A stretch of 64,000 nucleotides of DNA from Crocinitomicaceae bacterium. GTDB lineage: Bacteria; Bacteroidota; Bacteroidia; Flavobacteriales_D; Crocinitomicaceae. Positions 1-11,796 of this stretch are shown piece by piece (position 1 is the first letter of the stretch; each line of letters starts with the position of its first letter). The position numbers were made by a program, and so were the translations under genes. A model generated the notes under the pieces. The model was not told where the DNA came from, did not search any database, and saw only the letters and a list, made by a program, of their open reading frames with translations. The stretch covers positions 1-64,000 of the forward strand of contig JAKVAQ010000025.1 in NCBI GenBank assembly GCA_022447665.1. The letters run 5' to 3'.

Positions 1-1
1 A

Positions 2-349
2 GATGGCTGGGAATTTTTCGACACGAAAATAAAACCTAACCATATTTACTGGCAACAAATCAACGACAGAAGGGTAATTGGGTTATTAATGGAAAAAGGA
101 AGTAATCCAGACAAAGAACACACAATAGAGCATTCTTTTATCGGTGAAAAAGATAAATTACAATCATTGAGTGACCAACTGACTTCAGATGGGTTTACTT
201 TATGCTCATTAAATGATAACCAATTAACCCTAACTAAACCGTCAAAATTAGTTGGAGGAGAATTATCTAACTTAACCCAAAGACTTGCGGACTACACCGC
301 TAGTATAGGAATCAAATATGATGGATGGGGCGCAAAGGTTGAAAAATAA
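2..349 (+). CDS. RraB-like protein, 5' end outside the window (cassette 1)
   Basis: The reading frame is open from base 2, so the true start lies upstream and only about 115 C-terminal residues are present. The segment around ANPD-like 'SNPDKEHTIEH' followed by a helical middle and the C-terminal 'YDGWGAKVE' matches the pattern of the regulator of ribonuclease E activity B (RraB) fold, where a conserved YDGWG ends the domain. In Proteobacteria RraB binds RNase E; stand-alone RraB-like domains in Bacteroidota have no proven partner, so function is inferred from family resemblance only. The gene is the cargo of the first cassette-like unit and is followed within 10 bases by attC-like site 1. 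An internal ATG at 89 exists but would cut into the domain, so it is unlikely to be the start. Confidence 0.6.
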   Translation, partial: DGWEFFDTKIKPNHIYWQQINDRRVIGLLMEKGSNPDKEHTIEHSFIGEKDKLQSLSDQLTSDGFTLCSLNDNQLTLTKPSKLVGGELSNLTQRLADYTASIGIKYDGWGAKVEK

Positions 350-358
350 TATTCAAAC

Positions 359-414
359 GTGTGGTAACACTGTGTGAAAATGCATTAAAACTCATTTTAC
401 ACTAACCGTTGGCA
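359..414 (+). repeat. attC-like site 1
   Basis: A folded site between two cargo genes. The outer left part is GGTAAC and the right end is CGTTGGC (G at 408), matching the integron right core GTTRRRY. The centre is a stem of GTGTGAAAATG (left) with CATTTTACAC (right) around the loop element GCATTAAAAC; the left arm carries one unpaired extra base, as extrahelical bases do in attC. The unit that begins here (GTTGGC at 408) ends with GCTAAC at 1085. Confidence 0.6.
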
Positions 415-432
415 ATAATAAACCAATACACA

Positions 433-1089
433 ATGAATTCAAATGAAAAATACGTCCATGATATAATCAATACCCAAATCAAAATGGGATTCAAATCAGT
501 TGAAGAACTTTTAGAATATGTTACTGAACTTATTCAAGACGAACAACTGGAAAAAGATGTTGATGAATCTTGGGCCAAAGAATTAATTGAACAGGAATAT
601 GCCAAGCGTATGAATGCTGCTACAAATGATTGGGGATATCCTACAGGTCCTTTTTTACTCGCGGATGCATTCAATGAACTCCGTGGGCTGGGTATCATTG
701 CAATTCATAATGCAGGATACACAACATCTGATGGTGAAGCTGATGTAGTTGAAATAGAAAATGCTCTTCGCGAACATGGAATACGATCTGAGGGCTATTG
801 TTTCTATCATGAACAAGATTTAGAAAGAGCGCTAGATGAGAATAATCCAATGCTTCCTTTGTCTTTTCAAAAAGTAGATAATTCAGACCCTGCCATCACT
901 GAAAAAATTGGTCAACTAATCATAGAAGTTCTCCGAAAAAATAAGCTGAACGCTACTTGGAGTGGAAACGTGAATGAAAAGATATTGATTTCTCCAATTC
1001 TTTGGAATAAAGTTTATGAGAAGGACTTTGGCCCTAATTTCAATTTTGGTGAATCATATTATATCATAAAGGAAAAATATAGTAGCTAA
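433..1089 (+). CDS. DUF6891-like protein (cassette 2)
   Basis: A soluble protein of 218 residues with no signal peptide or membrane segment. The ATG at 433 is preferred; an in-frame TTG at 409 lies inside attC-like site 1. The first 60 residues are acidic and helical. Residues about 68-100 carry 'WGYPTGPFLLADAFNELRG', then 'GIIAIHNAGYTTSDG', which resembles the DUF6891 domain pattern (tryptophan-aspartate region, then a GI-A--N-G stretch followed by SDG). No enzymatic function is known for that family and none can be read here. It stands alone in its unit, with site 1 before it and site 2 immediately after its stop. Family assignment is from memory of the motif pattern and needs a profile search. 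Confidence 0.7.
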   Translation: MNSNEKYVHDIINTQIKMGFKSVEELLEYVTELIQDEQLEKDVDESWAKELIEQEYAKRMNAATNDWGYPTGPFLLADAFNELRGLGIIAIHNAGYTTSDGEADVVEIENALREHGIRSEGYCFYHEQDLERALDENNPMLPLSFQKVDNSDPAITEKIGQLIIEVLRKNKLNATWSGNVNEKILISPILWNKVYEKDFGPNFNFGESYYIIKEKYSS

Positions 1090-1138
1090 CAAAACCTAAA
1101 CTGCATTGAAACGCAGTTTAGCCTAACCGTTACAAGCC
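1084..1138 (+). repeat. attC-like site 2
   Basis: GCTAAC on the left and CGTTACAAGCC on the right (GTTACAAGCC at 1129-1138). The centre is a perfect 9-bp stem, CTAAACTGC (1096-1104) with GCAGTTTAG (1113-1121), around ATTGAAAC. GTTACAAGCC is the exact reverse complement of GGCTTGTAAC at 2766-2775, marking both ends of the next unit. Confidence 0.65.
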
Positions 1139-1164
1139 ATTCTAAGAAACAGACCGAGCATAAA

Positions 1165-2085
1165 ATGAAAGACTATTTTGAATTACAATATGTACTGACA
1201 AACCGAAAGATTAAGGAAGCAGGACTTACCCCCCTTTTAGGTTCTATTTTGGGCTTAACTGCATTCGTTTTGCTTTCAGAATATTTTTTTCATAAGATTG
1301 AATTTGCTAAATATTTGGTCATCTTAGTTTGTCTTAGTTTTCAATTCAGACTTTCTGAAAAAGACAGAACGGATTTCTTGTTATCAACATATGGAGATAA
1401 GTTAAAAAATAAAATAAGGGTTTTAGAAAACTTAATTATATCCACTCCATTTGTATTTATCATTGTATATAAGAGTTTGTTCCCTGAAGCCATCATCTTG
1501 CTTTTTTGTTCGATTATTATTGCGCTATTCTCTTTTCGTACTAGCCTAAATTTTACAATCCCCACACCCTTTTCTAAAAATCCATTTGAATTTACCACAG
1601 GCTTTAGAAAGACCTTTTTAATACTCCCCTTGGCTTATGCATTATCTGTTATTGCAATCAATGTAGACAATTTTAACTTAGGGATATTCTCAATATTACT
1701 TATGTTTCTAATCACTTTGAGCTATTATTCAAAACCTGAAGAAGAGTTTTATGTATGGGTTAATGTGGATACTCCAAAATCATTTTTGATGAAGAAAATG
1801 ATGATTGCAACAAAAAATTCTACCCTATTGACGATCCCAATTTCTCTTGGGTTATTGATTTGTTATCCAGCTGAGTATAATTTGATACTACTCTTTTTTT
1901 TCATTGGTATTCTGTTTTTATGGGCAATGGTTTTGGCCAAGTACTCTGCATACCCGTCAGAGATTAGTTTGCCAGAGGGAATTATAATTGCTTTTGCTTT
2001 ATCTTTTCCTCCATTGATTTTATTGGTAATTCCATATTTCTACCCAAAATCTATTAAGAACCTTCGATTGATATTGAATGATTAA
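1165..2085 (+). CDS. ABC exporter membrane subunit, ABC-2-like (cassette 3)
   Basis: A 306-residue polytopic membrane protein with about eight hydrophobic segments (near 25-42, 50-62, 89-124, 153-168, 174-189, 222-236, 241-259, 273-294). It has no recognised motif of its own, but its last codons overlap the start of an ABC ATPase gene by 8 bp, so the two are almost certainly translated together as permease and ATPase of one transporter. The substrate is unknown; small two-gene exporters of this layout often handle peptides or antibiotics, which is inference. Start is ATG at 1165, 27 bases after the unit boundary. The pair makes this a two-gene cassette. Confidence 0.7.
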   Translation: MKDYFELQYVLTNRKIKEAGLTPLLGSILGLTAFVLLSEYFFHKIEFAKYLVILVCLSFQFRLSEKDRTDFLLSTYGDKLKNKIRVLENLIISTPFVFIIVYKSLFPEAIILLFCSIIIALFSFRTSLNFTIPTPFSKNPFEFTTGFRKTFLILPLAYALSVIAINVDNFNLGIFSILLMFLITLSYYSKPEEEFYVWVNVDTPKSFLMKKMMIATKNSTLLTIPISLGLLICYPAEYNLILLFFFIGILFLWAMVLAKYSAYPSEISLPEGIIIAFALSFPPLILLVIPYFYPKSIKNLRLILND

Positions 2086-2758
2086 AATTAAAGAACTTAA
2101 TAAGCACTATGGAAATAATGAAGTGTTAAAAGAGATTAACATGGAATTTTTAAGAGGCAAGATTTATGGCGTTGTTGGTGAGAATGGTGCAGGAAAAACC
2201 ACCTTATTTAGATGCATTGCAGGTTTAGAAAACTACAAAGGAGAAATAATTTCCCAAATTTCACCTTTAAAAAATCATTTAGGATTACTACTGACAGACC
2301 CTTTCTTTTTCTCGAAGATAACAGGCAAAGAGTACATTAGGCTTTTATGTAATGCTCGGAATAAAAAAAATATCAATATCGACCAAAAGAATATTTTTGA
2401 CTTACCACTAAATCAATATGCTTCGACCTACTCAACAGGGATGAAAAAGAAGTTAGCAATAACAGCAATTCTACTTCAAGAAAATGAGTGCTTTATTCTT
2501 GATGAACCTTTCAATGGTGTTGATATTCAAAGTAACATTATTTTGACTGAAATAATATTGAAGCTGAAAGCATTGAATAAAACAGTTCTAGTTTCATCTC
2601 ATATTTTTTCAACCCTGAGTGACACTTGTGATGAAATACATCTTTTAAGAAAAGGAGAGCAAATCAAATCAGTTCAAAAGGAGGACTTTAAATTATTAGA
2701 GCAAGAAATGAAAGATTTTACCATAGGAAACCGAATTGAAAAACTTGAACTTAAATAA
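2078..2758 (+). CDS. ABC transporter ATP-binding protein (cassette 3)
   Basis: A 226-residue nucleotide-binding domain. Visible motifs: Walker A 'GENGAGKTT' at residues 34-42, a signature-like 'YSTGMKKK' in place of LSGGQ, Walker B 'CFILDEPF' with the catalytic Glu, and the H-loop His in 'VSSHIF'. The YSTGMKKK form is common in ABC-2 type export ATPases (CcmA/NatA-like). The start overlaps the permease gene at 2078-2085, implying coupled translation and a dedicated two-subunit exporter at the inner membrane. attC-like site 3 begins 8 bases after the stop. Confidence 0.92.
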   Translation: MIKIKELNKHYGNNEVLKEINMEFLRGKIYGVVGENGAGKTTLFRCIAGLENYKGEIISQISPLKNHLGLLLTDPFFFSKITGKEYIRLLCNARNKKNINIDQKNIFDLPLNQYASTYSTGMKKKLAITAILLQENECFILDEPFNGVDIQSNIILTEIILKLKALNKTVLVSSHIFSTLSDTCDEIHLLRKGEQIKSVQKEDFKLLEQEMKDFTIGNRIEKLELK

Positions 2759-2765
2759 GAAAAAC

Positions 2766-2829
2766 GGCTTGTAACAAGGTGTATAGCGCATACCCCTCGG
2801 GATACGCAACATACAAAGAACGTTAGGCC
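2766..2829 (+). repeat. attC-like site 3
   Basis: Left end GGCTTGTAAC (2766-2775), exact reverse complement of the start of this unit at 1129-1138. Right end CGTTAGGCC with GTTAGGC, a full match to the integron core GTTRRRY. The centre folds as TGTATAGCG/ CGCAACATACA-type arms around a CCCCTCGGG turn. Confidence 0.68.
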
Positions 2830-2869
2830 GAATTAAAGAAAATAATCTAAGTAAATCGAGATAAAGAAT

Positions 2870-2877
2870 TAACTTTG
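2870..2877 (+). promoter_or_regulatory. -7 promoter box of the fic cassette gene
   Basis: TAACTTTG, a perfect match to the Bacteroidota -7 consensus TAnnTTTG, 21 bases before the fic ATG. It means this cassette gene does not depend on an external promoter. Its last base is the first base of the palindrome at 2877-2898. Confidence 0.6.
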
Positions 2878-2898
2878 ATAGTATCAAATGATACTATC
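2877..2898 (+). promoter_or_regulatory. perfect palindrome, candidate operator for fic autoregulation
   Basis: Two 10-bp arms, GATAGTATCA and TGATACTATC, are perfect inverted repeats separated by AA. The element begins at the last base of the -7 box and ends directly before the ATG at 2899, so a protein bound here would cover the transcription start. The Fic protein has a C-terminal winged-helix-like region, which makes autorepression a reasonable inference. Confidence 0.55.
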
Positions 2899-3852
2899 AT
2901 GAAGCCTCCTTACGATATTACTCCTGCTATTCTAAAGCTGATAACTCAGATATCAGAGAATCTAGGAGAGGTAAATGCCAATTTTTTAGATAAGCCTTCT
3001 CCTCAACTGAGGAAGCAGAATAAAATCAAAACGATTCATTCTTCATTGAGTATTGAGGGTAATACTTTAACCGAAGAACAAATCACAGCCCTTCTGGAAG
3101 AAAAGAGAGTTATTGGTCCTAAAAAGGATATTGAAGAAGTTCTAAATGCGATTTCAATTTATGAGAATCTAGAGAACTACTCTCCTTTTTCGATTGATTC
3201 GTTTTTAGAGGCACATCTTGATTTGATGAAAGGCCTTGTAAAAGGAGCTGGTGAATTTAGAAAGCAAGGTGTAGGAATAGTTAAAGGCGAGCAAGTTCAG
3301 CATTTGGCACCGCCCTTTGAAAATGTTCCAGGACTAATGAAAGACTTGTTTGAGTATCTTGAAGACCCCGATGAGCTTTGCTTAATAAAGAGCTGTGTTT
3401 TTCATTATGAAATGGAGTTCATACATCCTTTTCTAGATGGAAACGGAAGAATGGGTAGGTTATGGCAAACATTAATCTTGAAGGAAGAATATCCAGTTTT
3501 TGAGTTTCTTCCATTTGAAACTTTGATTAGCGAAACACAAGAGGATTATTACAAAGCTTTGGCAATAAGTGATAAGACAGGAAAGTCGACGGTTTTCATT
3601 GAATACATGTTAGGGCTAATCAATGAATCATTAGATGTTTTACTTGTGTTCAATAATCGAACATTGAGTGACGTGGAACGATTAGAGTATTTCATTAGTC
3701 AGAGTTTGAATACATTTTCTAGAAAGGATTATATGAGCGTCTTTAAGGATATTTCATCAGCCACGGCAAGTAGGGATTTAAAAAAGGGGATTGAGCTAGC
3801 TTTATTTACAAAGGAAGGAGAGAAGAATAAGACAGTTTACGTACTTAAATAA
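2899..3852 (+). CDS. Fic family protein (cassette 4)
   Basis: Fic-fold protein of 317 residues, predicted to transfer AMP (or another nucleotide part) to a target side chain. The complete catalytic motif 'HPFLDGNGRMGR' is at residues 176-187, with the catalytic His and the phosphate-binding GNGR. An N-terminal inhibitory motif 'SIEGN' at 51-55 fits the class II autoinhibited arrangement. The last 70 residues look like the winged-helix domain of Fic-wHTH proteins, which suggests DNA binding. The ATG at 2899 is chosen over the TTG at 2875 because the latter overlaps the -7 box. Unit boundaries GTTAGGCCGA (2822) and TCGGCCTAAC (3854) match 10 of 10. Target protein unknown. Confidence 0.92.
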   Translation: MKPPYDITPAILKLITQISENLGEVNANFLDKPSPQLRKQNKIKTIHSSLSIEGNTLTEEQITALLEEKRVIGPKKDIEEVLNAISIYENLENYSPFSIDSFLEAHLDLMKGLVKGAGEFRKQGVGIVKGEQVQHLAPPFENVPGLMKDLFEYLEDPDELCLIKSCVFHYEMEFIHPFLDGNGRMGRLWQTLILKEEYPVFEFLPFETLISETQEDYYKALAISDKTGKSTVFIEYMLGLINESLDVLLVFNNRTLSDVERLEYFISQSLNTFSRKDYMSVFKDISSATASRDLKKGIELALFTKEGEKNKTVYVLK

Positions 3853-3853
3853 C

Positions 3854-4039
3854 TCGGCCTAACACGGTGTATAAGCAATGCTGACCTCTCTAGTTAGGAA
3901 GCGAAGCAAGAACTTGCAGAGCTAAACAAAAGAAGCCCATCAAAACGGTTGCGTTTTCTTGGGCTTTTTCTATTTTTATCGGAAAGTGTTAGAGTTTGTG
4001 GCGGTTAAACGCACTGACTCATACACAAACGTTATAGCC
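3854..4039 (+). repeat. attC-like site 4, long form containing a terminator
   Basis: Left end TCGGCCTAAC, then ACGGTGTATAAGCAATGCTGAC; right part CACTGACTCATACACAAACGTTATAGCC. The inner arms GTGTATAAGC and the reverse of CTCATACAC pair imperfectly. GTTATAGCC at 4031-4039 pairs exactly with GGCTATAAC at 4817-4825 at the end of the next unit. The middle 100 bases hold the hairpin at 3931-3969. Confidence 0.6.
3931..3969 (+). terminator. intrinsic terminator after fic
   Basis: Stem AAGCCCA (3933-3939) with TGGGCTT (3960-3966), extended inside by AAAACG with CGTTTT, followed by TTTTT. It would end transcripts of the fic cassette inside its own attC-like site. Confidence 0.75.
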
Positions 4040-4056
4040 AATTGAAATAAACAATT

Positions 4057-4812
4057 ATGAAATCAACTTTTATCATATTTGCTCTTCTATTATGTATAAA
4101 CTCTATTGCTCAAACAATTTCTTTACCTACTTATGTGGAAGGTCAATATGAAAATGATACCGTTTATACATACTATGGGTCATTACCATCTACAGGGATG
4201 GGAAGTGTTGATCTCGGAGGCTCGATAGCATCTGGGTTTATAACGGGGGTCGACTTTAAAATAGTTGTTGATAGTACAAATCAAGGAGCCTCCCCAACAC
4301 ATGCTGCTTATAGGGACTCTTTAGGAACATTGGTTCCAGTTTATCAAGGTGATACTTTAGATCTACCAGCGTCATTCCAATTATATGCAGGAGATATTGG
4401 TTTTCATATCATTATCGAAGGAACTCCACAAATAGCAGGTGAATCATACTTGTGTGATTTAGGTTACACATTTTCAACAGGTTCTGATTGGGGGATGCTT
4501 ATCCTAGAAAATACGCAAGATTCTTGTCTTGTAGATGAATTTAACGGCTTAAATGATAATACTCAAAATCACTACATCAAAGTATTTCCAAACCCATTTA
4601 ACCAAAACACTACAATTGAAATTGAAAATTATCCAAACGAATTGTATAACTGTATAATGTATGACTTTCTCGGAAAAAAAGTCAAGTCAATTAAGAATAT
4701 TAGTTCAAATAAATTCATAATTTATAAAGAAGGATTGCCGACAGGAACCTACGTTTTTCAATTGCAAAATAAACATGGTATAATAGCCACTGGTAAGTTA
4801 ATAATAGAATAA
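4057..4812 (+). CDS. secreted protein with T9SS sorting domain (cassette 5)
   Basis: 251 residues. An N-terminal signal peptide (about 1-19, ending NSIAQ) sends it through Sec, and residues about 173-251 form a type A T9SS C-terminal sorting domain: 'IKVFPNPFNQNTTIEI' opens it, then 'YDFLGKKVKSI', 'LPTGTYVFQL' and a final 'GKLIIE'. The 150 residues between are beta-rich with no recognised catalytic motif. It should be exported to the cell surface or medium. The unit ends GTTATAGCC and GGCTATAAC match 9 of 9. A chromosomally encoded T9SS is required for its export, so this cargo only works in a T9SS-bearing host. Confidence 0.85.
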   Translation: MKSTFIIFALLLCINSIAQTISLPTYVEGQYENDTVYTYYGSLPSTGMGSVDLGGSIASGFITGVDFKIVVDSTNQGASPTHAAYRDSLGTLVPVYQGDTLDLPASFQLYAGDIGFHIIIEGTPQIAGESYLCDLGYTFSTGSDWGMLILENTQDSCLVDEFNGLNDNTQNHYIKVFPNPFNQNTTIEIENYPNELYNCIMYDFLGKKVKSIKNISSNKFIIYKEGLPTGTYVFQLQNKHGIIATGKLIIE

Positions 4813-4816
4813 AAAA

Positions 4817-4871
4817 GGCTATAACTTGGTATAAAGCGCATTAAAACGCCTTATTCAAAACGTTGTAAAAC
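4817..4871 (+). repeat. attC-like site 5
   Basis: Left end GGCTATAAC; centre GTATAAAGC-GCATTAAAACGC-CTTATTC with two unpaired bases on the left arm; right end CGTTGTAAAAC. GTTGTAAAAC (4862-4871) pairs 10 of 10 with GTTTTACAAC at 5351-5360. Confidence 0.62.
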
Positions 4872-4891
4872 ATTAAATTAAAGCAAAAAGG

Positions 4892-5371
4892 GTGAATCTT
4901 AAAAATTCCATATCAGCAAAAGAAACATACAATAGAGATATTAAATGGTTATTTGATTTTACTCAAGACTTCAACAATCGAAAGAAATGGGATAAACAGA
5001 CTTTGGAAATTGATTTTATTGATGAATGTAAAGAGCTAAAAAAAGGAGCTAGAGTTTTTACAAAATCAATAGAAGGTGTTTTTATGGAAACAGAGTATTT
5101 GACTTTTAAATCCCCAAATGAAATCTCAATCAAAATGCTTAACAAATCAGAGATTTTCAATGACTTTATTGGAACTTGGAATTATTCTTCAATTGATGGG
5201 AATATGACTGACTTAAAAATCACTTACTCTTTCAATTTGAAATTTCCTTACAATATAATTAAAAACAAAGTCTCGCAAAAGATCAGATGGAATATGACTA
5301 AAAAATTAGTATTCCTCAAAGAATATCTAACCGAATTAGAAAATAAAAACGTTTTACAACATAGTTTATAG
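4892..5371 (+). CDS. SRPBCC family protein (cassette 6)
   Basis: 159-residue soluble protein starting at GTG 4892, preceded by AAAAGG. The pattern (Asn-Arg---WLFDFTQDFNNRKKWDKQ near the start, central beta strands, a long C-terminal helix 'NIIKNKVSQKIRWNMTKKLVFLKEYL') is that of the START/Bet v1-like SRPBCC fold, which binds hydrophobic ligands in a cavity. Ligand and role are not visible. The last codons (NVLQHSL) are encoded inside the left end of attC-like site 6, so the cassette boundary and the C terminus overlap. Confidence 0.8.
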   Translation: MNLKNSISAKETYNRDIKWLFDFTQDFNNRKKWDKQTLEIDFIDECKELKKGARVFTKSIEGVFMETEYLTFKSPNEISIKMLNKSEIFNDFIGTWNYSSIDGNMTDLKITYSFNLKFPYNIIKNKVSQKIRWNMTKKLVFLKEYLTELENKNVLQHSL

Positions 5372-5413
5372 AGCATACCCTTTGGGGAACGCGCCATACA
5401 CAAACCGTTAGCA
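5351..5413 (+). repeat. attC-like site 6
   Basis: Left end GTTTTACAAC, overlapping the end of the SRPBCC gene. Centre ATAGAGCATACCC/GGGGAACGCGCCATAC resembles site 3 (ATACCC...GGGATACGC). Right end CCGTTAGC, with GTTAGC a match to GTTRRRY. Confidence 0.6.
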
Positions 5414-5430
5414 TTCATTAAAAACGAAAA

Positions 5431-5886
5431 ATGGAACACTTAGTTAGAGGTACAAATGGAATGATTCATTTAATTGCCTCAATAATTGCATTGATAACAG
5501 GTAGTTTAGTTTTGATATTGAAGAAAGGAACTAAAATTCACAAGCAAATCGGATATGTTTATGTGGTCAGTATGGGGATTTTAATATTGACCGCATTTAT
5601 GATTTATCGACTTTTCGGAGGTTGGGGAATTTTCCATTATACAACAATAGTGAGTCTTTTAACTGTTGGATTGGGGATGATTTCGATTTGGACTAAAAGA
5701 CCAACAAAAAAATGGAAATACCTTCATTTTTCATTTATGTATTGGTCAGTAATGGGATTGTATGCCGCTTTTGCAGCGGAAGTGCTAACAAGAATTCCTG
5801 AAACACCTTTTTTCGGAATGGTAGGAATTGCAACAGGAATTATAATGTTAGTGGGCGGAATATTTTTTAGAAATACTAGGGAGTAA
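5431..5886 (+). CDS. DUF2306-like membrane protein (cassette 7)
   Basis: 151-residue integral membrane protein with four hydrophobic segments. It begins 'GMIHLIASIIALITGSLVLILKKGTKIHKQIGYVYV', where the paired His residues and the KGT--H---G-YVY pattern match the DUF2306 family of four-helix membrane proteins. Role unknown. ATG at 5431 lies 24 bases after the unit boundary at 5407. The unit ends with GCCTAAC at 5894, which pairs only partly with its start GTTAGC, so the boundary match here is weaker than in neighbours. Confidence 0.78.
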   Translation: MEHLVRGTNGMIHLIASIIALITGSLVLILKKGTKIHKQIGYVYVVSMGILILTAFMIYRLFGGWGIFHYTTIVSLLTVGLGMISIWTKRPTKKWKYLHFSFMYWSVMGLYAAFAAEVLTRIPETPFFGMVGIATGIIMLVGGIFFRNTRE

Positions 5887-5891
5887 AAACG

Positions 5892-6129
5892 TCGCCTAAC
5901 ACAGTAGCTAAAGCCAACGCCTCCGCTTTTTGGCCAGCACGATCTCTCCCGTTTGCGTGCTCATTGGCGGGGTAAGCCGGCACCTACGCATAAAGCTTCG
6001 GCGCTCACGCTCGGGCGGACGCGCCCAGTGTCCGGGGTTTGGCCCGCGCACCTCGCACGGTAATTTAGGCCATCGCACTTTTTTCCATCTTCTTCTAAAT
6101 TCCCTAACTTTAGCCAAACGTTATGCAAT
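5892..6129 (+). repeat. attC-like site 7, long GC-rich form
   Basis: TCGCCTAAC at the left and ACGTTATGCAAT at the right, with about 220 bp of strongly GC-rich sequence inside, in contrast to the AT-rich surroundings. It contains AGCTAAAGCCAACGCC, GGCCAGCACG and TCTCTCCCGTTTGCGTG, all found in modified form in site 12 (10871-11060), so the two are diverged copies. Open frames on both strands here are by-products of the GC content. GTTATGCAAT (6120-6129) pairs 9 of 10 with ATTGCCTAAC at 7008-7017. Confidence 0.55.
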
Positions 6130-6141
6130 ATTGAAAACGAA

Positions 6142-7026
6142 GTGAATAAAATTGATCAACACATAATACTAAAGTATGGGAGAAAGTTAGGGTTTGCCGA
6201 ATACGGGAGCCTTGATGGATTTCCGATTATCTACTGTCATGGCTCACAAAGCTCTAGACTTGAAATGCATTATGACCTCACCTTTGCAACTGAAAACAAT
6301 TTAAGAATAATTGCTGTCGACCGACCTGGACACGGGATTTCAGATTTTAATCCAACAGGTTCAATCCTGGGATTTGCAAAAGATGTCAAAGAACTAGCAG
6401 AGCATTTGAATATTAATGAATTTTCTGTCGCTGGAATGTCTGCAGGCTCTCCTTTTGCATTAGGGATAGCCTATGCTTTTCCTGAGAATATTTACAAAAC
6501 TTCAATCATTAGTGGATTTGCACCTTTCAATCAAGAAAACAAAAAGCACCTTTCTAAGGAAGTGAAAATGATGCTTAATCTTGCTAAATACTTTCCTTTT
6601 TTATTAAAAATGTTACTTAAAGTTCAGGTTAATAAATTGAACAAAAACCCTAAAAAAGCACTGAAAGGTTTCTTGAAAATCATGGGGCAACCAGATCAAG
6701 AAATTCTAAAAAATGAATCCGTAATTAAGGTTATTGAAAATATGTTTAAGGAAGCATTTAGAAATGGAAGTAAAGGAGTTGCTTACGAGATTTCTAATCT
6801 ATTAGTAAGAGAATGGGGCTTTAAATTAGATGAAATTCAAGTACCTGTTACATTTTGGCAAGGAGAAAAAGACAACAATGTTCCTTTTGAATGGGCGAAA
6901 TTTATGTCGAATAAAATCAAAGGAGCAAACTTGATAAAATATCCAGAGGAAGGCCATTTGATAATATTTCAGCATGCTGAAGAAACATTTACAGATTTAA
7001 AACAAACATTGCCTAACAATGTATAA
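6142..7026 (+). CDS. alpha/beta hydrolase (cassette 8)
   Basis: 294-residue cytoplasmic alpha/beta hydrolase starting at GTG 6142. The oxyanion loop is 'CHGSQSS' (32-38), followed by 'DRPGHGISD' (60-68); the nucleophile Ser100 sits in 'GMSAGS'; an acidic residue in 'GEKDNNVP' and the His in 'EEGHL' near the C terminus complete the triad. A lid insertion of about 80 residues is present between strands. Substrate cannot be told. The final codons run into attC-like site 8 (ATTGCCTAAC). Confidence 0.92.
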   Translation: MNKIDQHIILKYGRKLGFAEYGSLDGFPIIYCHGSQSSRLEMHYDLTFATENNLRIIAVDRPGHGISDFNPTGSILGFAKDVKELAEHLNINEFSVAGMSAGSPFALGIAYAFPENIYKTSIISGFAPFNQENKKHLSKEVKMMLNLAKYFPFLLKMLLKVQVNKLNKNPKKALKGFLKIMGQPDQEILKNESVIKVIENMFKEAFRNGSKGVAYEISNLLVREWGFKLDEIQVPVTFWQGEKDNNVPFEWAKFMSNKIKGANLIKYPEEGHLIIFQHAEETFTDLKQTLPNNV

Positions 7027-7065
7027 ACGGCATTAAAACGTCCGTTTATACTAGCCGTTGGCGTT
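7008..7065 (+). repeat. attC-like site 8
   Basis: Left end ATTGCCTAAC; central stem GTATAAACGG with CCGTTTATAC around CATTAAAACGT; right end GCCGTTGGCG. GTTGGCG (7057-7063) pairs 7 of 7 with CGCCAAC at 8911-8917. Confidence 0.65.
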
Positions 7066-7081
7066 AATTAAAACTAAGTAA

Positions 7082-8935
7082 ATGAAAAGATTAATATTAT
7101 CAATAGTATTCTTAACGTTCAGTTTCTGTTTATTTGCTCAAACAGGGCCCGGAGGTATTGGTGCAAATAATGGAACATCAAATCTTATTTTATGGCTTGA
7201 CGCAAATTCAGGTACTTTTTCAGACGCAGGAATTACCCTATGTATCAATGGCGGTTCATTGCAACAATGGAATGATATGTCAGGATATAATAACCATTCT
7301 ACTCAAACTATAGTGGCTAGACAACCTACTTGGAATACATCTATTTTAAATGGTTCTCCTGCAGTTAATTTTTCTTCTTCAAGTCAAAACTATATTTTAC
7401 ATCAAATCACAACTAATCCATCTACCAGTGATTATTGTTTTTTTGCAGTTTTTAACTCATCAACTATTGGACAAAATAATCTATTACAGCAAGCAAATGG
7501 TACAGGATTAGGGAGAACGCATTTTATACTCAATGGTTCAACTCCAGCATCATCATTTATTGGAGGTGTTACACAAAGCTCAACCATTAATTATGCAGCA
7601 AGTTCATGGGCAATAAGTGGTACAAATTATGATGCTAATGGAGCGGCATCATCTATTTCTTTTTATCAAGATGGGAGCTTTGGCGGAAATGTAGGAAGCA
7701 TTACACCAGAATCAGCAACAGGAAATTGGATTACAGGTGTAAATAAAAATCTTTCTGCTCAATGGTTAGATGCAGATGTTACAGAAATAATCTTCTTTAA
7801 TTCCCTTTTAAATGATGCTCAATTAATAATAATACAAAATTACTTAGCTGCTAAATATGGTCTATCATTGACAGTAAATGACATATATGATGAAGATAAT
7901 GCTGGAAACGGAAATTATGATTATGACGTTGCAGGTATTGGCAGAGTGGATGCCTCAAATATCCACAATGATGCTCAAGGAACGGGCATAGTAAGAATAT
8001 TAAACCCTACAGAATTAGGAGATGATGAATTCTTAATCTGGGGACATGATAATGGGGTACAGCAAGCTATTGAAACTACGGACGTTCCTGCCTCTGTTCA
8101 AGCAAGATTTGATCGCACTTGGCGCGTTAGCGAGAGAAATGCGGCAAATACATCTAATGTAAATGTAGGAGCTATTGATATGCTGTGGGATTTAAATGGT
8201 TTGGGCCCTGTAACAGCTTCTGATTTAAGACTCTTAATTGACACTGATAATGATGGTTTATTTAATGATGAAACCACAATTTCTGGTGCAACCGATTTAG
8301 GTGGTGGAATATTTGAGTTTGCCTCTGTACCTGGAGGAGCAGCAGGAATAAGAAATAACAGAAGGTTTACACTTGGTACAATTAATCCAAGCCAAACACC
8401 ATTGCCTATTGAGTTAGTTTACTTCAATGCAACTTTAGAAAATGAACTTACAGTAAAACTAGAATGGCAAACTGCCTCAGAAATAAATAATGGTTTTTTT
8501 ACAATTGAACGTTCAAAAAATGGATTAGACTGGGAAGAAGTGTCCAAAATTGATGGAGCAGGAAATTCAACTGCTTTATTGAGCTATTCAACAATTGATG
8601 AAAATCCATATTGGGGAATATCTTATTATCGTTTAAAACAAACAGATTTTGATGGACAATTTGAGTATTCAGATATTAGATCAGTAACTATTAAGCAAAA
8701 CACAGCTGAAGTAGTTATTTACCCCAACCCAGCCAACAACCAAATAACCATACAGGCAAATGAGCAGGAATTACAAGGGATTAAAATTTTCAACACCATT
8801 GGGCAGGATGTAACCAACCTAACAAAACAACTCTCAAAAACAGACAACAGTGTAATAATAGACTTAAGCAATTTAGCCAATGGAATATACAAAGTAAAAA
8901 CAGTAACTACCGCCAACATTGTGTATAAGCAATAG
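7082..8935 (+). CDS. LamG-like secreted protein with T9SS sorting domain (cassette 9)
   Basis: 617 residues. Signal peptide 1-19 (ending LFAQ). Residues about 30-260 form a concanavalin/LamG-like region ('LILWLDANSGTFSD', 'WNDMSGYNNH'), followed by a Bacteroidota module 'GIGRVDASNIHNDAQGTG...ELGDDEFLIWGHDNG' and a fibronectin-like stretch from 'PLPIELVYFNATLEN'. The C terminus from 'VVIYPNPANNQITIQ' to 'GIYKVKTVTTANIVYKQ' is a type A T9SS sorting domain. It is probably an adhesin or surface protein. The last eight codons lie inside the left end of attC-like site 9, so the sorting signal and the cassette end coincide. It is a long cargo for a single cassette. Confidence 0.85.
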   Translation: MKRLILSIVFLTFSFCLFAQTGPGGIGANNGTSNLILWLDANSGTFSDAGITLCINGGSLQQWNDMSGYNNHSTQTIVARQPTWNTSILNGSPAVNFSSSSQNYILHQITTNPSTSDYCFFAVFNSSTIGQNNLLQQANGTGLGRTHFILNGSTPASSFIGGVTQSSTINYAASSWAISGTNYDANGAASSISFYQDGSFGGNVGSITPESATGNWITGVNKNLSAQWLDADVTEIIFFNSLLNDAQLIIIQNYLAAKYGLSLTVNDIYDEDNAGNGNYDYDVAGIGRVDASNIHNDAQGTGIVRILNPTELGDDEFLIWGHDNGVQQAIETTDVPASVQARFDRTWRVSERNAANTSNVNVGAIDMLWDLNGLGPVTASDLRLLIDTDNDGLFNDETTISGATDLGGGIFEFASVPGGAAGIRNNRRFTLGTINPSQTPLPIELVYFNATLENELTVKLEWQTASEINNGFFTIERSKNGLDWEEVSKIDGAGNSTALLSYSTIDENPYWGISYYRLKQTDFDGQFEYSDIRSVTIKQNTAEVVIYPNPANNQITIQANEQELQGIKIFNTIGQDVTNLTKQLSKTDNSVIIDLSNLANGIYKVKTVTTANIVYKQ

Positions 8936-9045
8936 CGGGTTTAGTGCTAATTTGAAAGGTAAAAATATAAATCAAAGGTCGGTGCTATCTAAGAGTTTAG
9001 CGGGTTGAAATTTGCTACTGCTCATACACTGAGCCGGTAGCTTTC
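8909..9045 (+). repeat. attC-like site 9
   Basis: Left end ACCGCCAAC inside the preceding gene; arms GTGTATAAGCAATAGC and GCTACTGCTCATACAC pair 14 of 16; right end CCGGTAGCTTTC. GGTAGCTTTC (9036-9045) pairs 9 of 10 with GAAAGCTAAC at 9839-9848. The core GGTAGC departs from GTTRRRY at one base. Confidence 0.58.
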
Positions 9046-9064
9046 ATTAAAAAACGCAACAGAA

Positions 9065-9829
9065 TTGAATAATAGAATTGCTATAGTTACTGGAGTGAGC
9101 CGATTGAAAGGAATAGGACGTGCTATTTGCTATGAATTGGCGAGTAAAGGATTTGATATATTTTTCACCTATTGGTTACCCTATGACAAAAGTATGCCTT
9201 GGAATGTAAACGAAGATGAACCTGAAATAATCCTAAAAGAAATTTTAGATACAGGAGTTAGATGTGAAAAATTGGAATTAGACTTATCAAGCGAAAAAGC
9301 ATATGAAAAGCTATTTAGTGCAGTTAAGAATAAGTTAGGTAGTCCTTTAGTACTCGTAAATAATGCGACATACAGTACCGAAACAACAATTAATAATTTG
9401 ACTGAATCAGAATTGGATAAGCACTATTCAATAAATTTAAAGGCAACGACTTTATTGTGCTTGGAATTTATTAAGCAATTTGAATTCAATAAAAATGGTA
9501 GGATAATAAACTTATCGTCTGGACAATCGTTAGGTCAAATGCCAAACGAAATAGCATATGCAATTACGAAAGGAGCAATTGAAACATTGACTTATACTTT
9601 AAGTCAGGAAATTGCTTCAAAAGGAATTACAATTAATGCTGTAAACCCAGGTCCGAATGACACAGGTTGGATCAACGAAGAATTAAGAAATAGTCTAATC
9701 AAACAATTCCCAATGAAACGAATTGGTAAACCAAAAGACACAGCAAAACTAGTTGGTTTTTTAACAAGTAAAGATGCTGATTGGATTACTGGACAAATAA
9801 TTCATTCAGAAGGTGGATTTAAACGATAA
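9065..9829 (+). CDS. short-chain dehydrogenase/reductase (cassette 10)
   Basis: 254-residue classical SDR starting at TTG 9065. The NAD(P) site is 'TGVSRLKGIGRA' (9-20), a longer form of TGxxxGIG; 'LVNNAT' (about 97-102) is the NNAG-equivalent; the catalytic set is Ser151/152, Tyr165 and Lys169 ('YAITK'). The C-terminal part 'ITINAVNPGPNDTGW' and 'DADWITGQIIHSEGG' are the usual PG motif and substrate-loop end. The insert 'TYWLPYDKSMPWN' marks a subgroup also seen in Firmicutes. Substrate unknown. It is the only cargo of its unit. Confidence 0.92.
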   Translation: MNNRIAIVTGVSRLKGIGRAICYELASKGFDIFFTYWLPYDKSMPWNVNEDEPEIILKEILDTGVRCEKLELDLSSEKAYEKLFSAVKNKLGSPLVLVNNATYSTETTINNLTESELDKHYSINLKATTLLCLEFIKQFEFNKNGRIINLSSGQSLGQMPNEIAYAITKGAIETLTYTLSQEIASKGITINAVNPGPNDTGWINEELRNSLIKQFPMKRIGKPKDTAKLVGFLTSKDADWITGQIIHSEGGFKR

Positions 9830-9838
9830 ATGAAAAAC

Positions 9839-9911
9839 GAAAAGCTAACAATGTATATGAAATCCTAACACCTTGCAGGATGTTCCGCTTCATATACTCA
9901 CCGTATAGGTA
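9839..9911 (+). repeat. attC-like site 10
   Basis: Left end GAAAGCTAAC; arms TGTATATGAAATCC and the region GCTTCATATAC around CTAACACCTTGCAGGATG; right end CCGTATAGGTA. GTATAGGTA (9903-9911) pairs with TACCTATAAC at 10443-10452 with one base missing. Confidence 0.58.
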
Positions 9912-9921
9912 ATAGACAATT

Positions 9922-10437
9922 ATGCGCGTAGGAATTGTAAAAGAAAAATACAGTAAGTCTTTTAGGTGGATATTTTACATTGGTGTCCCTCTTTTGCTTT
10001 TGTCGACGTACCTATTGTTGATGCTAGTAAATATAGACCTTGGATTTACTTGGCTTGTGCTTGCTATCATCTGTATTGCTGGTTTTGTCTTTATTGATAA
10101 GGTCGTTGATGATATAATTATACTGGGTGAAGTAGCCATTCGTGAAGATTCGTTTGTATTTGACTTAAAAGAAAACGTGATTACAATTCCATTCAATGAA
10201 ATTAGAATGATTTTGTTAAAACCAATGCTTGGTGTGAGTAGAGTTGCAGACACATTCAAAGTATATAATTGTCAAATAAAGACTAACGACAATCTTTATA
10301 TATATCAGATAACACGGGAAGAAATTAAAAGCGGTAAATTGATTGCAAAGAACCTAATGAATCCTAGAGCATTTGATTTTATAAGATTCCTTGAAAAACA
10401 AAAGATTAACCATCGTTTTGGGAAGCGCATATATTAA
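9922..10437 (+). CDS. small membrane protein with PH-like domain (cassette 11)
   Basis: 171 residues. Two adjacent hydrophobic helices (about 16-38 and 40-60) anchor it in the membrane. Residues about 70-171 ('DSFVFDLKENVITIPFNEIRMILLKPMLG...') have the strand pattern of a bacterial PH/EbsA-like domain and end with a basic helix. No catalytic motif. Function unknown. The ATG at 9922 is 19 bases after the unit boundary, and attC-like site 11 follows the stop directly. Confidence 0.72.
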   Translation: MRVGIVKEKYSKSFRWIFYIGVPLLLLSTYLLLMLVNIDLGFTWLVLAIICIAGFVFIDKVVDDIIILGEVAIREDSFVFDLKENVITIPFNEIRMILLKPMLGVSRVADTFKVYNCQIKTNDNLYIYQITREEIKSGKLIAKNLMNPRAFDFIRFLEKQKINHRFGKRIY

Positions 10438-10442
10438 AAAGC

Positions 10443-10501
10443 TACCTATAACACTATGTAAAAATGCATTAAAACGCATTTTACATTAAACTTTGGCTTT
10501 C
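10443..10501 (+). repeat. attC-like site 11
   Basis: Left end TACCTATAAC; central stem TGTAAAAATGC with GCATTTTACA around ATTAAAAC, with one extra A on the left arm (extrahelical); right end ACTTTGGCTTTC, whose core CTTTGGC departs from GTTRRRY in its first base. Confidence 0.62.
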
Positions 10502-10505
10502 ATAA

Positions 10506-10862
10506 ATGAAAACGTTCTTTTTCATATTCAGTTTTTCCGTTCTTCTATTTTCGTGCAAGAAAAAAACTGTAGTAACGTTTAATGCGTGTCGTGAATCCGC
10601 TTGTACGGACCTAAGACTATATGAAAATGGAACCTTTGATTTAGAATGGAGTTTTCCATCGAGCAACGGTCCTAAAAAATATTATTCCGGAAAATTTCTC
10701 GTACTTGAAGAAAAAGTTCTTCTATATACTGACTCGTCCTTTGATGCATCTGGACAACTTAATAGCTTGACGGAAATTTTAAAAAGTAAGTACGTTTCAG
10801 TTGAAGCTCGTGGTTTTAGGTGGTTTTCATATGCACTTGAACCAAAGTTAATAGAGGAGTAA
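10506..10862 (+). CDS. small lipoprotein, unknown function (cassette 12)
   Basis: 118 residues. The lipobox 'LLFSC' with Cys17 marks a lipoprotein exported by Sec and lipidated. The mature part has the pattern 'FDLEWSFPSSNGPKKYYSGKF', a short beta-sandwich-like sequence often seen in small Bacteroidota lipoproteins that begin with a Cys-rich 'ACRESACTDLRLYENG'. No family could be named with confidence. It begins five bases after the boundary CTTTGGCTTTC. Confidence 0.75.
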   Translation: MKTFFFIFSFSVLLFSCKKKTVVTFNACRESACTDLRLYENGTFDLEWSFPSSNGPKKYYSGKFLVLEEKVLLYTDSSFDASGQLNSLTEILKSKYVSVEARGFRWFSYALEPKLIEE

Positions 10863-10870
10863 AAAACTGC

Positions 10871-11060
10871 ACCTAACATAATAGCTAAAGCTAACGCCCT
10901 CCCTTTTTAGCCAGCACGCTCTCTCCCATTTACGTGTACTTGGCGAGGTAGTCCCTTTCGAACGGGAGCGAGCGGACACACCCAAGGTCCTTAGACTTGT
11001 AACTATTCCGTATATTGAATTGATGAACTGTTGAGTTACTAAAACACTTTCGGCACATTC
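10871..11060 (+). repeat. attC-like site 12, long form, diverged copy of site 7
   Basis: Begins CACCTAACATAATAGCTAAAGCTAACGCC and continues with TTTTTAGCCAGCACG, TCTCTCCCATTTACGTG, GGCGAGGTAG and GCGGACACACCCAAGGTCC, each a variant of the corresponding stretch in site 7. It ends near ACACTTTCGGCAC. Compared with site 7 it has lost GC content and symmetry, which suggests decay. Confidence 0.5.
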
Positions 11061-11066
11061 AAAATT

Positions 11067-11749
11067 ATGCGAAGTTTATTTTTGATTTTACTTTTTCTAC
11101 CTTTTACAAATCTCTCCCAAGAAATTTATTCAGATTCTACGGCGAGAGCCTCTTGGGTAAGTCACAAATACTTTTGGTCTGCCGAATACGGCTTGGCATA
11201 TGATGACGGCAAGTCTAAACTAAATGAGGCTATGTTCAATACATATGGTGTTAACATCCTTGATCGCACCTATTTTCAAGCAGGGTTTAAAGGACCAATT
11301 AGCATAAGTGGTAATTCAACTAAACTCAATACCTATGACGGAGAAATTGGATTTTCGTTTTGGCCGAAAGAAATGAGAAACTCTGGAAACACTATAAACT
11401 TAAGCATGTCTGGATTTGCGTTCAATTATGCTATGGGTAAAGACTTTTTTTACTTTTTGGACTGGGTTGATTTATCCACCAAAATTGGATTTAACTGGGG
11501 AATGGACTTTTTCAGACAAGGAGATAGAAAATTCAGAAACCCGTATTTTGCGCGGAAAGTAAATTCTGAACTTCGCTTACGGCACGTGCGGAATATATTT
11601 ATGATGTAACGAAGTTTAAGTGGAAACCTGACCCACTTTATCCAGCCGACAATTTCGCATTTAAGCATCAATATTTTTCGTTTTCATTTGGATTGGGCTA
11701 TTGTTTATTTCCGAATGATAATCCCGAAGAGCTAGAACCGAAAGAATAA
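11067..11749 (+). pseudogene. outer-membrane beta-barrel-like protein, frameshifted (last cassette)
   Basis: Frame 1 encodes 180 residues with a signal peptide ('MRSLFLILLFLPFTNLSQ') and alternating aromatic strands, then stops at 11609 after an unnatural 'LRLRHVRNIFMM'. A second frame, open from about 11568 to the TAA at 11747-11749, continues the barrel with 'ARAEYIYDVTKFKWKPD' and ends on a strand-like 'YFSFSFGLGYCLF'. The two parts join naturally near 11560-11580, so a one- or two-base indel has broken a single gene of about 225 codons. Either it is a real pseudogene at the far end of the array or an assembly error. Family not recognised. Confidence 0.7.
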
Positions 11750-11796
11750 GACTATCTAACAGGAATTAAAAAACGCAGGCAAGAAAATTTCGGTTT

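Follow-up and report, generated by a model that had tools for sequence, protein, structure and literature searches.

The first 11,760 nucleotides of a 64,000-nucleotide stretch of Crocinitomicaceae DNA (contig JAKVAQ010000025.1, here C18, positions 1 to 64,000; referred to below as the window) very probably form the 3'-terminal part of an integron-type cassette array on the chromosome. The array appears to be of an I2-less, mostly co-directional kind with an Xer-derived, IntI-related recombinase, I2 being the insert of about 42 residues also called the IntI patch. An integron-type array had been proposed in the original prediction, and the proposal was supported by the complementarity between the two ends of a unit, by the predicted folding of the sites, by independent sites on other contigs, and by a head consisting of integrase, attI-like site and array on contig C35 of the same genome. 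The features of the functional definition of an integron that can be judged by sequence were found: co-oriented cassettes with one attC-type site each, the arms of which are split between the ends of the same cassette, a predicted fold with R and L stems, an attI-like site beside the integrase with a join at G|TT, and a duplication with G|TT edges in a relative (genome G037). The window and C18 begin at the same base, and the array is cut at this contig end; an integrase upstream of the array therefore cannot show within the window.

Complementarity of cassette ends

The key test asked whether the opening bases of a unit find their partner at the end of their own unit or at that of a neighbour. 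Pairing within the unit is the pattern expected of integron cassettes, and we know of no repeat family for which it would be expected. All ten positions matched in the units at 1129, 2822 and 4862, and nine of ten in those at 4031 and 6120. The unit at 7057 matched over its first 7 bases and at 9/10 positions overall, while the unit at 9903 matched its own end once one base was deleted. Beyond the core, the units at 408, 5407 and 10492 matched their own ends by wobble pairing only. Eight units had been put forward as self-complementary. This held at 1129, 2822, 4031 (put forward as 9/9, recomputed as 9/10), 4862, 6120, 7057 and 9903, but the unit at 9036 gave 8/10 and not 9/10 matches.

For 14 units, 11 from the window and three from C35, 74 of 98 positions beyond GTT matched the end of the same unit. 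When the ends were re-dealt among these units, 33.7 ± 5.5 matches were obtained, and a value of 74 was reached in none of 20,000 trials. The R'' and R' that meet in one array site come from different cassettes, and they matched at chance level (20/70). With the fragments on C4, C22, C63 and C64 included, the array fragments of this genome provided 25 units with 146 own-end matches at 175 positions, compared with 64 ± 7 after permutation; no value as high occurred in 100,000 permutations. At least six of seven matches beyond GTT were present in 20 of the 25 own pairs and in 4 of 600 cross pairs. Since the match usually ends after 10 bases, strict matching over 11 overlooks cassettes.

Folding of the sites and search with a covariance model

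The short sites have TAACaannGTnTAAAnnGCATTAAAACGCAnTTTAnACTAACCGTT in common. After joining of the cassette ends to a circle, the bottom strand was predicted to fold so that an outer R stem of at most 11 bp is separated by an unpaired spacer from an inner L stem, which is capped by a terminal loop. This is the two-stem shape of attC, in agreement with the bottom-strand folding that had been suggested as a check; an extrahelical base in L'' occurred in some of the predicted folds, not in all. Summed over 16 cassettes, the predicted bottom-strand energy came to -265 for own ends, to -205 when the start was taken from the neighbour and to -198 when it came from other cassettes. Predicted folding z scores of the short forms ranged from -3.2 to -9.0 against mononucleotide shuffles. 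The long forms (S4, S7, S9 and S12) are extended in their terminal part, and known attC sites lengthen in the same part.

No Rfam family matched the window sites. A covariance model, R1, was built from nine sites. R1 is narrow: the short GCATTAAAACGC form is detected, but most forms of 120-220 nt escape it, and the site counts are therefore low estimates. A search for the pattern TAACA..GTATA was too noisy genome-wide. In the same genome R1 found independent sites on C4, C22, C31, C63, C64 and C74 with scores of up to 63.9 bits, so that the covariance check proposed earlier led to further arrays at contig ends. All contigs with further R1 sites were small contigs, or carried the sites at their ends, which is where repeats that break assemblies would leave them.

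Array heads in the genome

The array on C35 starts beside a tyrosine recombinase gene (2537-3367, plus strand) facing away from it and runs to the contig end. An attI-like site is present at this head, and the first cassette is joined to it at G|TT (CAACAAG|TTATC, as read from the sequence alone); the cassette starts with ...CTTGGCTTAACAACAAG|TTATC and is closed by its R'' GATAAC. On the side away from the array, tRNA-Arg and tRNA-Met adjoin the integrase (L007:3548-3962), with repeated tRNA-end-like fragments between. A second head was found on C22 (L079:9558-9640). Here an attI-like palindrome, GGAATAAAACCCATTAATGGGTTTTATTCAATT|GTTAGC, as in other attI sites, directly precedes the first cassette, and no integrase is present. 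A co-directional integrase may have been lost from this head, which would then be served in trans by the C35 enzyme.

The genome thus contains at least two arrays, with heads on C35 and C22 and tails on C18 (the window) and C31, and the window tail may or may not belong to the array headed on C35. The tail may instead be part of the second array, headed on C22, and either be served in trans alone or have no enzyme serving it. This explanation is compatible with an I2-less integron-type array, and its probability falls a little short of even. The presence of two heads and two tails and the retention of the attI-like palindrome on C22 speak for it. Against it, C35, C18, C4 and C22 share one type of site, and a single enzyme could therefore serve all of them. 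The C35 enzyme may be the one that serves the window tail.

The integrase encoded on C35

The tyrosine recombinases of the genome are XerD (C26), XerC (C49) and a third enzyme, the 277-amino-acid protein encoded at C35:2537-3367. A tyrosine recombinase with the IntI patch had been expected upstream; the recombinase was found in the same genome on C35, but the patch was absent from it and also from its array-linked relatives. The catalytic residues R136, K161/K164, H225, R228, H251 and Y260 are kept, and the C-terminal KSPLD tail is common to this enzyme and IntI. The block that is missing relative to IntI4 and to IntI of four phyla was identified as I2; the references were genuine IntI of Vibrio, Rubrivivax, a planctomycete, a verrucomicrobium and Rhodocyclaceae. 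In the alignment to IntI4 (2a3v), IntI4 jumps from 178 to 249 where the C35 integrase goes from 179 to 207, and the spacing between Arg1 and HxLRH is 91 in I2-less and 133 in I2-bearing enzymes. The C35 integrase is not an IntI; it was not classed as one because the defining domain, I2, was tested for and is absent.

With the IntI profile TIGR02249 the enzyme scored 204 bits, below the cut-off of 265. The XerC and XerD profiles TIGR02224 and TIGR02225 gave 171 and 174 bits, compared with cut-offs of 335 and 330. The best NCBIfam match was NF040815, 'site-specific tyrosine recombinase/integron integrase', a label that comes via the archaeal XerA model and does not separate the two functions. 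The AlphaFold model of a relative from Winogradskyella ursingii (mean predicted local distance difference test score 88.7) was tied between XerA (Z 23.7, root mean square deviation 14.2) and IntI4 2a3v (Z 22.8, root mean square deviation 2.7 over 246 residues). In a phylogenetic tree, I2-bearing IntI formed one clade (100/100) among I2-less relatives, with the C35 integrase outside, and a branch supported at 99/98 split nearly all IntI and I2-less relatives from XerC and XerD of this genome. The tree has no fixed root and hence does not give the order of I2 gain. No canonical IntI above the cut-off was found in this genome or in 10 relatives. A recombinase present on many Acinetobacter plasmids (hits H7-H20, one of them annotated as TnpF) shares 52% identity with the C35 integrase across 81% of its length.

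Association with cassette arrays across Bacteroidota

Most genomes of the family and order encode relatives with 42-48% identity to the C35 integrase, and an integrase of this family was present at E ≤ 1e-70 in 70 of 198 Bacteroidota genomes sampled. In a first sample, consisting of named loci plus relatives, I2-less integrases had 63 cassette signatures in 395 kb downstream and 14 in 616 kb upstream, while shuffled sequences gave 9 and 8. An independent sample of 20 loci was taken from a scan of the phylum and picked by integrase score and contig size alone. It contained 44 signatures in 162 kb downstream and 2 in 173 kb upstream (shuffles, 5 and 2), with at least one downstream signature in 15 of the 20 loci. 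Genuine I2-bearing IntI loci had the opposite layout, with 0 signatures downstream and 5 upstream. The canonical IntI layout is divergent, and cassettes hence lie upstream.

R1 hits in the 53 named loci were all downstream and on the integrase strand (17/17), in taxa including Rufibacter, Flavobacteriaceae S0862, Seonamhaeicola and Algibacter. A contig end within 2.5 kb of the integrase lay downstream in 20 of 37 cases and upstream in 6 (p 2.5e-4). The closed genomes G004 and G037 contained arrays of at least 18 and at least 15 cassettes. In relatives, attI-like sites were found just after the integrase stop codon; they consist of ATA, an ATAAA...TTTAT palindrome and GTT, and the palindromes end in G|TT.

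Relatives without I2 were also seen outside Bacteroidota, namely in a Spirochaetota metagenome-assembled genome (MAG; L127), in archaeal MAGs (L104, L133 and L143) and in Patescibacteria and other candidate phyla (L112, L123, L126, L131 and L136). The Spirochaetota MAG had one weak attC-like match downstream of the integrase (E 0.02).

Signs of cassette mobility in relatives

A 461-bp cassette is present twice in G037, in copies that are 99.6% identical, lie 12.3 kb apart and have different neighbours; homology extends exactly from C|GTT to C|GTT. Another cassette of this genome occurs as a tandem duplicate, and G004 contains similar cassette pairs with 96-98% identity. An array behind an I2-less integrase is carried by a plasmid of Chryseobacterium sp. 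SNU WT5 (L280, NZ_CP041688.1), and an IS110 transposase and a group II intron are inserted in its attC-like sites. Insertion inside attC sites is typical of attC-targeting elements. Cargo common to Flavobacteriaceae S0862 and G108 (85% over 0.7 kb) was considered as a precise exchange and rejected, as its edges are not at G|TT.

Proposed mechanism and alternative explanations

Each cassette consists of one gene or gene pair and an attC-like site, the outer arms of which are split between the cassette ends. In the proposed mechanism the arms would pair in the free circular cassette, and one strand would fold to a two-stem hairpin with R stem, spacer and L stem. A tyrosine recombinase would cut between G and TT and join the hairpin either to another attC or to the attI that heads the array. 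From the sequence data we infer that both excision and insertion of cassettes at G|TT are carried out in this way by an enzyme lacking I2, which uses the folded single strand. The candidate in this genome is the Xer-derived, IntI-related protein on C35, and across Bacteroidota such integrases head arrays, usually reading towards the cassettes and with attI just after their stop codon.

The array resembles sedentary chromosomal integrons such as the superintegron of Vibrio cholerae (IntIA and the V. cholerae repeats) in being long and co-oriented, in having one attC per cassette with pairing of own-end arms, in the similarity of sites within the genome, in mixed accessory functions and in the recombination point G|TT. 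It differs in that the Bacteroidota integrase lacks I2 and stands outside the IntI clade, in that most Bacteroidota integrases read towards the array with attI after the stop codon, and in that the attI-like site is a palindrome. XerA, XerC and XerD have the same domain layout without I2, but the integrase family described here is linked to cassette arrays, has the KSPLD tail of IntI and occupies a separate branch of the tree.

An improbable alternative is that the arrays are clusters of attC sites lacking integron-integrases (CALIN), with cassettes laid down by a canonical IntI in trans or long ago, and that the patchless recombinase is an unrelated neighbour. CALIN, as defined in IntegronFinder, resemble the present arrays in lacking a recognizable IntI and are the best that current tools would report. 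The C22 piece and the C18/C31 pieces have no integrase, and the sites at the end of the window array are decayed. I2 is the insert that defines the IntI clade and has been said to be necessary for activity (PMC9668308), for which a passage in PMC2426708 cites Messier & Roy (2001); IntegronFinder likewise treats it as the feature setting IntI apart (PMC9024848). In its passages on the insert, the study of Smyshlyaev et al. (2021; PMC8138268) regards it as essential for integron function and reports no arrays for members without it, whereas arrays were found here without the insert that these passages call essential for the integron-like subgroup of tyrosine recombinases. The recombinase differs from a chance neighbour of CALIN in sitting at the array head, even if it scores under the TIGR02249 cut-off: a patchless integrase heads arrays in loci drawn by integrase alone, and an attI-like site follows its stop codon directly. 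Moreover, array genomes that were tested had no canonical IntI, and the precise duplication in G037 is recent.

That the repeats belong to a transposon or repetitive extragenic palindrome-like family, or are Xer/dif modules alternating with genes by chance, is very improbable, for although they are palindromic and of several lengths and the recombinase is Xer-related, such repeats would not lead one to expect that a flank pairs with the opposite end of its own unit and not with the neighbour, or that all units strictly share one orientation and have a single site each, a Pfam scan of the cargo found no transposase within the window array, and the Chryseobacterium array was invaded in the manner of attC-targeting elements.

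Several observations weigh against an I2-less integron-type array served by the C35 enzyme. The C35 integrase is divergent from its array and has no N-terminal extension of the common type, and C18 is not joined to C35 in the assembly. The nearest listed relatives of the integrase, L086 (a MAG) and L142 (Pontibacter), had no array in the stretch examined, and many loci of the first sample carry no cassette signature. Plasmid copies in Flagellimonas and Arenibacter lie amid transposon and plasmid-maintenance genes (Tn3 transposase, resolvase) and have no array.

In surveys, Bacteroidetes were credited with In0 elements only and later with one complete integron, that of Salinibacter ruber (PMC9024848). 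Surveys rely on the IntI insert, or on attC models that were trained with IntI systems, to recognize integrons, and in them the phylum looks nearly empty. Probably an entire class of platforms that collect genes has gone unnoticed. No description of I2-less integrons was found in the open-licence literature, a search outside which subscription papers and preprints fell. A wider proposal, which we put forward tentatively as the balance tilts slightly the other way, is that integrons do not need I2, that the Bacteroidota class recombines folded attC with Xer-like integrases, and that canonical IntI gained I2 later. Escudero et al. (2016; PMC4792948) described a paradox in the order of I2 and attC, namely how attC could be selected before the domain that recognizes it existed. 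The Bacteroidota systems are candidates for the missing intermediates of attC and I2 evolution, or for a parallel solution; I2-less integrons, if confirmed, would answer the paradox with living intermediates. They would also add a large hidden gene-exchange system, including a plasmid copy, to a phylum that ranks among the most abundant in sea, soil and gut, and the origin of attC recombination would become a directly testable question.

Cassettes and sites of the window

The predicted alternation of twelve folded sites with eleven plus-strand cargo units was recovered in full, each site and unit lying where it had been placed. All features given here are on the plus strand; site scores are from R1. 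The array begins with a partial cassette cut by the contig end (1..365), whose open reading frame (ORF) at 2-346 encodes an RraB-domain protein (PF06877, E 1e-13), followed by the attC-like site S1 (366..410, 62.0 bits). Cassette 1 (409..1129) encodes a DUF6891 protein (PF21831, E 6e-45), its own ends matching only with wobble, and ends in S2 (1088..1131, 62.8 bits). Cassette 2 (1130..2822; own ends 10/10) carries a membrane protein together with an ABC transporter ATPase (PF00005), with S3 at 2773..2824 (45.1 bits). A Fic-family protein (PF02661, E 2e-18) is encoded by cassette 3 (2823..4031; own ends 10/10), the site of which, S4 (3861..4033), is a long form delimited by its boundaries and pairing. 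The product of cassette 4 (4032..4862; own ends 9/10) is a secreted protein with a type IX secretion tail (PF18962), and S5 lies at 4823..4864 (52.8 bits). Cassette 5 (4863..5407; own ends 10/10) encodes an SRPBCC-like protein (PF10604, below its cut-off), with S6 at 5358..5409 (47.9 bits), and cassette 6 (5408..6120) a DUF2306 membrane protein (PF10067), with the long site S7 (5898..6122) placed by its boundaries.

An alpha/beta hydrolase (PF00561) is encoded by cassette 7 (6121..7057; own ends 9/10), which is followed by S8 (7015..7059, 60.4 bits). Cassette 8 (7058..9036; the first 7 bases of its ends match) carries a large secreted protein with a type IX secretion tail (PF18962) and the long form S9 (8915..9038), again placed by its boundaries. 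Cassette 9 (9037..9903; own ends 8/10) encodes a short-chain dehydrogenase (PF13561, E 4e-41), with S10 at 9847..9905 (41.7 bits). Cassette 10 (9904..10492), whose own ends match after a 1-base deletion, encodes a membrane protein of no Pfam family and has the site S11 (10450..10494, 59.7 bits) with a decayed right core. The small lipoprotein-like ORF of cassette 11 (10493..11048) extends from 10506 to 10862, and the cassette ends in the long, decayed site S12 (10875..11050). A last, apparently decayed unit (11049..11760, ORF 11067-11609) forms the end of the array, after which the chromosome backbone follows; no convincing further site was found in the window beyond S12. The right cores at S9 to S12 are decayed to GGTA, GTAT, TTTGG and TTTCG.

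The cargo functions of the window are mixed, as in chromosomal integrons, and three products are of no recognized kind beside the named families. The long sites S7 and S12 are 83% alike over 75 nt but belong to unrelated cassettes. In G004 (L212), too, there are long sites with similar ends (TAGCTTTAGCCAAACGTTA).

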